Assembly: GCF_016526145.1 (NCBI RefSeq)
Contig: NZ_JADDUE010000002.1
Location: 513,121-577,120 of the forward strand
Direction of reading: 5' to 3'
Origin: Saccharopolyspora galaxeae
Lineage (GTDB): Bacteria; Actinomycetota; Actinomycetes; Mycobacteriales; Pseudonocardiaceae
DNA: 64,000 bases
The notes beneath the pieces are model-generated. The model searched no databases. It saw only the letters and a list, made by a program, of their open reading frames with translations, and was not told where the DNA came from. The translations under genes and the position numbers were made by a program. Within the stretch, counting starts at the first letter, position 1. The number at the start of each line of letters is the position of its first letter. Shown here one piece after another: positions 3,417-54,859 of this stretch.

Positions 3417-3615
3417 TTGTCTTGTCAGCGGCGGAGCCGCTGAGCAGTGACCATGCAAGCAACCGGCACCGCGGCGGGTTCTCAGCGGCTTCCTCGCGAG
3501 GACAGCGATTTCGCCGCGTAGGGTGCTACGTCAGAAATCGATCCCGGAGCGAGGGAGCCGCTGAGGTTCCGCTACCGGCACCGCTACGCAAATCATTCCG
3601 AAAGGACTCCTCAGA
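3417..3615 (+). repeat. 199-base dispersed structured repeat, copy A
   Basis: Copy A matches copy B (23123-23321) over its full length with 11 mismatches by my count; the first 104 bases are identical. Inverted segments predict a GC hairpin at the 5' end (CAGCGGC-GGA-GCCGCTG), a 15-pair stem (3481-3495 with 3551-3565), an inner stem CGATTTC/GAAATCG (3506-3512 with 3534-3540) and a cap hairpin CGTAG-GGTG-CTACG (3517-3530). The copy fills the spacer between the DUF35 gene and ltp4 in the orientation opposite to that operon, and its end supplies the DUF35 stop codon. The remaining spacer, 3303-3416, shows no gene. Confidence 0.85.
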
Positions 3616-23122: not shown

Positions 23123-23321
23123 TTGTCTTGTCAGCGGCGGAGCCGCTGAGCAGTGACCATGCAAGCAACCGGCACCGCGGCGGGTTCTCAGCGGCTTCCT
23201 CGCGAGGACAGCGATTTCGCCGCGTATGGGCATACGTCAGAAATCGATCCCGCAGCGAGGGAGCCGCTGAGGTTCCGCTACCCGACCCGCTACGCAAATC
23301 ATTCTGAAAGAACTCCTTAGA
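23123..23321 (+). repeat. 199-base dispersed structured repeat, copy B
   Basis: This is the closest partner of copy A. Here the cap hairpin reads CGTATG-GG-CATACG (23223-23236) where copy A has CGTAG-GGTG-CTACG, so both strands of the hairpin changed together. The copy lies in the gap between the SDR gene and the Mce ATPase gene, in the direction of transcription, ending 23 bases before the TTG start. The rest of the gap (23029-23122) shows no gene. Confidence 0.85.
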
Positions 23322-54586: not shown

Positions 54587-54656
54587 CTCTACCCGTTGCG
54601 TGCCGCGGCGGCTGCAACACCTGTCTCGGAACCCTTGTTCGGTGTGGTCGTTGCAT

Positions 54657-54825
54657 GTCTCGAAGCGGCGAAGCCGCTTGCACCACCTATGCAACCGGCA
54701 CCGCCGCGGGTTCTCAGGTGTCTGCTCGCGAGGACAGCTCCGACGCCTAGTAGGGCGCTACTTCAGGAGGAGATCCCGCAGCGAACAGGCGCCTGAGGTT
54801 CCGCCAAGCGACCAGCTACGCAAAG
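54657..54825 (+). repeat. Divergent structured repeat, copy D
   Basis: Copy D has the same order of elements as copies A and B but much diverged sequence. The 5' hairpin is AAGCGGC-GAA-GCCGCTT (54663-54679), and the long stem CTCAGGTGTCTG (54713-54724) pairs with CAGGCGCCTGAG (54786-54797) using two G-U pairs. The cap hairpin is AGTAG-GGCG-CTACT (54749-54762). Unpaired landmarks ACCGGCACCGC, CGCGAGGACAG, GATCCCGCAGCGA and TACGCAAA are kept. It lies in the leader of the glycosyltransferase operon, same strand. Confidence 0.75.
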
Positions 54826-54859
54826 CGAGCACCGGGACTGTGACTCAGGAGGTGAGCTC

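Follow-up and report, generated by a model that had tools for sequence, protein, structure and literature searches.

The structured repeat described here is flanked by genes for a TetR protein and a glycosyltransferase in Saccharopolyspora galaxeae and lies 31 nt before the glycosyltransferase start, in the sense orientation. It has a core of ~170 nt, which grows to ~235 nt with its degenerate inverted-repeat flanks, and it is one of three copies in the 64-kb window (by which we mean the whole stretch of 64,000 nucleotides that was analysed). All three copies give strong covariance-model matches on the plus strand, with scores of 178–202 bits; that of the focal copy is given in Table 1, and the other two are at 3425–3596 and 23131–23302. 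The remaining model matches in the window are palindromic self-matches or score at most 19 bits. The initial annotation called the focal copy “D”, a label that implies a fourth copy, but the covariance model finds no fourth strong match in the window.

Table 1 Coordinates of the element and its parts in the window
Feature	Position	Strand	Comment
Whole focal element including degenerate inverted-repeat flanks	54613..54848	+	Orthologous site empty in G001 and G004; ends approximate
Structured core	54662..54828	+	Covariance-model match, 178.2 bits
5′ hairpin AAGCGGC-GAA-GCCGCTT	54663..54679	+	Consensus helix 1; both-side changes at 6 of 7 pairs in named copies
A/C-rich linker with conserved ACCGGCACCGC motif	54680..54705	+	Alignment A1 (own-genome copies)
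Long hairpin domain: GCGG/CCGC base, GTT/GTT internal loop, CTCAG..CTGAG long stem	54706..54804	+	Helices 2–8
87 nt deleted in conspecific G074	54711..54797	+	Ends ambiguous by ~2 nt
Conserved internal-loop motif GAGGACAGC	54730..54738	+	A1 columns mostly (nearly) invariant; present in the 12 A3 rows printed
Cap hairpin AGTAG-GGCG-CTACT	54749..54762	+	Helix 8; both-side changes at 5 of 5 pairs, outermost often unpaired
Conserved internal-loop motif GATCCCGCAGC	54772..54782	+	Alignment A1; replaced in L009 and L010
Right end region; by eye, repeats the left flank in inverted, degenerate form	54829..54848	+	Reaches the ribosome-binding site of the following gene
Copy A, subfamily A	3417..3615	+	Starts directly past the TGA of its convergent 3′-side neighbour
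Copy B, subfamily A	23123..23321	+	Sense gene on the 3′ side, hence unusual position

Two subfamilies can be distinguished, namely A (stem CAGCGGC) and B (stem CAGGCGTC or CAGACGTC), and the focal copy is of type B. Within the same genome, the best subfamily A copies are 92–95% alike to the query and others are down to 84% alike. Some full subfamily A copies in this genome and in the congeners G001 and G003 have imperfect inverted repeats, roughly CTNAGGRGTCCTTTCAGAATGATC as judged by eye. Such repeats would add a basal stem to the fold, and elsewhere the ends are degenerate or different.

A second, unrelated family is also present in the window. It is a 51-nt imperfect palindrome, GAGYGAACGG.CCGTTCG ... 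CGAACGG.CCGTTCRCTC, at positions 80, 7348, 8498, 8618, 13874, 33685, 33771, 44086 and 50241. The nine copies are 66–100% alike to one reference copy and occur in both orientations, and some adjoin genes that, by eye, resemble acyl-CoA or short-chain dehydrogenase genes. This palindrome could be the double operator of one regulator, or it could be another mobile palindrome.

The predicted fold is supported by covariation. RNAalifold predicts 42 base pairs from 26 own-genome copies, and 13 of these pairs have changes on both sides. A covariance model built from own-genome copies only was then used to align 85 matches from 80 named loci. The structure thus comes from copies other than those tested, but the model-fitted alignment leans towards the structure. 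In these 85 named-genome copies, 96.9% of cells pair, compared with a shuffled mean of 84.0, and both-side changes occur at 24 of the 42 pairs, compared with a shuffled mean of 16.9. The covariation score is 0.328 (shuffled mean 0.111). None of 500 shuffles was as high in pairing or in covariation score, and only 41–52% of cells pair when the partner is slid by 1–3 columns. Alignments A2 and A3 are both model-fitted. Since the copies are related, the cell counts represent non-independent events.

Changes on both sides occur in the long stem, the 5′ hairpin, the middle stem and the cap, and there are none in the basal GCGG/CCGC helix. The weakest pair is the outermost pair of the cap, which is unpaired in 22 of 80 cases. 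The compensatory changes proposed in the initial annotation are both real and general. The long stem that it quoted, CTCAGGTGTC/GGCGCCTGAG, the C-G to A-T change in the 5′ hairpin and the cap variants CGTAG/CTACG, CGTATG/CATACG and AGTAG/CTACT can all be found in the sequence. That every stem survives in the focal copy is nearly right, with the exception of one C-A mismatch in the long stem (columns 75–163 of alignment A1). The GTT/GTT loop is kept in copies A and B, as was claimed, but it is not restricted to them and occurs in all three window copies.

This loop is nearly constant in the own-genome copies, as are the internal-loop motifs GAGGACAGC and GATCCCG(C/G)AG. Copies L009 and L010 are the exception to the second motif. 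In these two own-genome copies, the right side of the internal loop differs and is 13 nt longer, with about GCGGTCACACCGGCAAGGGGC replacing GATCCC.

The G-T pairs of the focal copy had been said to work only in plus-strand RNA. This is too strict, since the focal C-A mismatch would be a wobble on the minus strand, but the plus strand does have moderate support in the hairpin. In the long stem (helix 4), the plus strand has 90 G-U cells and 14 A-C cells, with 51 of the 90 at one pair. The 26 own-genome copies have a G-U to A-C ratio of 55 to 5, in which 26 of the G-U cells come from one constant pair. Over all pairs with a Watson-Crick majority, the ratio is only 67:47. For the hairpin alone, plus-strand RNA is more stable in 22 of 24, 32 of 48 and 52 of 71 copies in three sets; for the whole element, minus-strand RNA is more stable in two of three sets and there is no difference in the third. 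Plus-strand pairing of the hairpin is thus moderately supported, which does not separate RNA from single-stranded DNA. The same holds for covariation, so that of the selected RNA structure originally proposed, the selection on base pairing is well supported and the choice of RNA over single-stranded DNA is not settled by it. In the mRNA of the abutting gene, the element is represented by its minus strand, opposite to the strand in which long-stem pairing is better kept. The wobble bias towards the plus strand therefore speaks against a simple minus-strand 3′ UTR, and a role as plus-strand RNA or as DNA is possible.

The best evidence here that the pairing is selected in place, and not copied between repeats, comes from copies behind gatB. 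In one genus, a strong copy occurs behind this gene at orthologous places in three of the four genomes searched (G095, G122 and G142), and the fourth has its copy elsewhere. At these three loci, the element is 84–92% identical by column and gatB is 92–94% identical, compared with 30–37% by column (49–65% of ungapped positions) in the 170 nt upstream. All 15 long-stem pairs are kept in the three copies, with six changed on both sides and two on one side. Given that the model matches only two places in G095 and one each in G122 and G142, conversion among many copies cannot explain the kept pairs. In other genomes, a copy is found behind recA in one case and behind murC in another.

The covariance model matches 31 of 120 Pseudonocardiaceae genomes, including the genome studied here, and 12 of 46 genera. 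Matches per genome range from 1 to at least 23, where up to 23 candidates were scored in each of the 120 genomes; for ten few-copy genomes, up to 150 candidates each yielded one to four matches apiece. With one copy as the query, the own genome yields 50 matches, some of which are pieces or palindromic self-matches. A DNA search was positive in 12 of 60 genomes, again with the own genome included, and none of 24 genomes outside the Pseudonocardiaceae matched. Among the matches listed, the named holders are mostly Saccharopolyspora, joined by Amycolatopsis bartoniae, a Saccharomonospora and Halopolyspora. The distribution within the family is patchy.

Rfam has no match in the window at the gathering threshold. 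Under relaxed settings there is one sub-threshold match (17 bits, where the threshold is 100) and none at E ≤ 1 in eight loci. A search of viral contigs with one exact pattern found no match, and neither did a distant DNA search of plasmids and phages. The repeat family is unnamed in the titles and abstract openings listed by term searches of the literature, and its copies are possibly listed, unnamed, in the S. erythraea supplements of PMC3610266 and PMC3827479.

For each of the three window copies, at least two congeners lack the element at the corresponding site. The focal site is empty in G001 and G004, where the flank matches are about 5 nt apart and no model match is found near the junctions. 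The element at 3417 is absent from all four congeners, G001–G004, and that at 23123 is absent from G002 and G003; G004 gave no joined match at the latter site, and G001 has 131 nt of other sequence there. A weak model match at this G001 site (L186 1386–1504, opposite strand, 23.5 bits, E 0.00045) is maybe the remnant of an older copy, and apart from it there is no model match of note at the junctions examined. Copy L008 of the own genome is missing in the conspecific G074, a presence/absence difference of 222 nt; G074 has about 60 nt of other sequence slightly further on. The direction of change at the presence/absence sites, gain or loss, is not polarised.

The long hairpin of the focal copy is deleted in the conspecific G074, at a short microhomology (Table 1), and this copy is therefore dispensable. 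A precise GTT-to-GTT excision of the hairpin is ruled out, as the G074 junction reads GCGGGG; the pattern expected of precise excision has three matches in six genomes. At one further site, the own strain has a degraded, hairpin-less copy (G000:C33:182802) and G074 an intact, young-looking one (C1:6003561, locus L212) that resembles other young copies. The flanking pieces are 94–97% identical, and the copy was possibly renewed via conversion or re-insertion. Copies L024 and L029 are shortened, apparently by deletion between short direct repeats inside the element, and the palindrome thus seems to be deletion-prone. Other sequence, perhaps an insertion sequence, seems to cut L011 close to the end of own-genome contig C12. 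The flanks of the G074 copy at locus L214 map to two own-genome contigs, C8 and C3.

We found no clean target-site duplication at the sites inspected by eye. A parent transposon was not found in the fetched loci, where 47 end matches include only one without the downstream core marker, and this one is a variant copy, L025. The Y1 transposase (PF01797) occurs in the own genome and in G074, and in none of G001–G004, which carry many copies; G001 alone holds dozens. Mobilisation in the manner of IS200/REP is unsupported, because this transposase is missing in four of the six genus genomes. A bias in replication strand looked weak by eye in G001 coordinates (uncounted).

The copies have a pronounced position relative to genes. 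We placed 110 of 172 copies using ORFs from a G+C-based script, so that gene calls are approximate, and 109 of these are distinct because one copy is present in two sets (L280 = L100). The 3′-side gene is convergent in 86 of the 109 (19/21 own, 41/54 named and 26/34 other copies), and its stop codon is 8–28 nt from the core end in 65, although this range was chosen after the distances had been seen. Random intergenic points from own and named loci are followed by a convergent gene in 47.5% of cases and have a stop codon at 8–28 nt in 3.1%. Where the genes on both sides are co-directional, the element is antisense to them in ratios of 12:1, 27:9 and 12:7, the last of which is not significant. 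A sense gene on the 3′ side was found for only 23 of the 109 copies, and the 5′-side genes lie in either orientation without bias (52 plus, 57 minus).

The elements abut diverse genes: 58 proteins from own and named loci yield seven clusters of two or three. Ten recognisable adjacent proteins that we picked (YebC, ClpP, GAPDH, SOD, PurH, GpsA, KatG, GatB, RecA and MurC) all align with family models up to, or close to, the C terminus; RecA has a tail of 20 residues, SOD one of 10 and MurC one of 9. The elements therefore follow native stop codons. At the 3417 site, the TGA is at the same place in congeners that do not have the element. Two of the three window copies, the focal one and that at 23123, go against the usual pattern by having a sense gene on the 3′ side. 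The focal copy is thus atypical, and its leader-like site fits the leader suggested in the initial annotation for this copy alone. An intrinsic terminator is unlikely, given that no U-run follows either hairpin: there is none after the long hairpin in alignment A1, and the 10 nt beside the 5′ hairpin have 7% A on the plus strand, equivalent to 7% minus-strand U (170 copies).

The family combines many dispersed copies, orthologous sites at which the element is present or absent, imperfect inverted repeats at the ends of some members, covariation that extends to low-copy orthologues and a strong tendency to lie right past a native stop codon, with the 3′ end of the element towards that gene. We think the chances are about even that it is a miniature, non-autonomous, mobile-type intergenic family, specific to the Pseudonocardiaceae lineage, whose internal fold is selected and acts at mRNA 3′ ends. 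The putative 3′-end role is suggested by the position of the copies and, at gatB, by a conserved stretch that reaches from the stop codon to the 5′ hairpin. The fold might be a 3′-end module that serves as a transcript boundary, as a shield against 3′–5′ exonucleases or as a barrier between converging transcripts. Copies would then survive where action at the 3′ end is harmless or useful, and a trans-acting transposase is a candidate for their spread. It is possible, although we regard it as tentative, that the element is mobile with the selected RNA fold as its cargo. Such a portable mRNA 3′-end module would land in a fixed orientation past native stops and could be domesticated via compensatory evolution, as at gatB.

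A less probable explanation is that the element is purely a MITE, with a fold that serves only its own movement through transposase binding or hairpins in single-stranded DNA, and that the place after a stop codon is simply the safest for landing. The inverted-repeat ends in part of the family, the presence/absence sites and the patchy copy numbers favour this, as does the fact that folds of single-stranded DNA would likewise tolerate G-T better than A-C. However, it does not account for compensatory change and conservation at gatB in genomes with one or two matches, and the anchoring of one end near stops (65/109 copies, against 3%) exceeds mere gene avoidance. Moreover, Y1, the only transposase type sought, is missing in four of the six genus genomes, among them G001 with its dozens of copies. 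We consider it fairly unlikely that the element is instead a stand-alone small RNA on the plus strand, multiplied by transposition and running towards the convergent neighbour. The plus strand is indeed favoured in the long stem, and the unpaired A/C-rich linkers would suit such an RNA, as would internal-loop motifs that hardly vary, but no upstream conservation marks a promoter at the gatB locus, the orientation of 5′-side genes is unbiased and there is no U-run terminator.

Matching arms could also arise when template switching corrects the palindrome and conversion acts between copies, so that pairing is not selected at all. The hairpin is a deletion-prone palindrome, and the G074 copy at C1:6003561 looks renewed next to its degraded conspecific counterpart. 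Nevertheless, this process is improbable here: internal loops remain unpaired and conserved, the wobble pattern in the long stem is strand-biased and compensated pairs are present in low-copy genomes. The probability is slighter still that the element is a riboswitch-like cis-regulatory leader of the glycosyltransferase gene. The focal copy does precede this gene closely and in sense, but two congeners have no copy at this site, and in the conspecific the hairpin of the copy is gone. As the role of the family, a leader or riboswitch is effectively refuted by the scarcity of sense genes on the 3′ side. The suggestion of an undescribed non-coding RNA or leader is partly supported. No Rfam family matches at threshold; a leader or a discrete RNA gene at this locus is unsupported for a family of dispersed repeats with empty sites and a position near stop codons.

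If the preferred reading of a mobile-type family acting at mRNA 3′ ends is correct, antibiotic-producing actinomycetes of one family would carry an abundant structured element that Rfam lacks. It joins covariation that spans genera with transposon-like presence/absence. Since dozens of similar 3′-end structures lie behind unrelated genes, the effect of the repeat on mRNA ends and lifetimes is directly testable.

Several known systems have features in common with the element. The REP/BIME sequences of enterobacteria are dispersed, palindromic and intergenic, are often located right past stop codons and have been proposed to shield mRNA 3′ ends. The element is likewise a palindromic, dispersed repeat near gene 3′ ends, but it is much larger, has complex covarying internal loops and is found in genomes of which four of six in the genus lack the Y1 transposase. 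The ERIC/IRU sequences, of about 130 nt, are palindromic, MITE-like and intergenic, as is the element. However, they belong to another phylum, and the element shows covariation across genera and has one end anchored near stops. MITEs of DDE insertion sequences are short and non-autonomous, with inverted-repeat ends and empty sites. The element is similarly short, multicopy and dispersed, with empty orthologous sites, although neither a parent transposase nor a clean target duplication was found for it and its internal structure is conserved more than its ends. Finally, the alphaproteobacterial “cuckoo” RNAs form multicopy families of structured RNA that lie between genes and are rich in C where unpaired. 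The element, which is known here from DNA alone, is also multicopy, structured and intergenic with C-rich unpaired stretches, and differs from them in its transposon-like presence/absence at orthologous sites.
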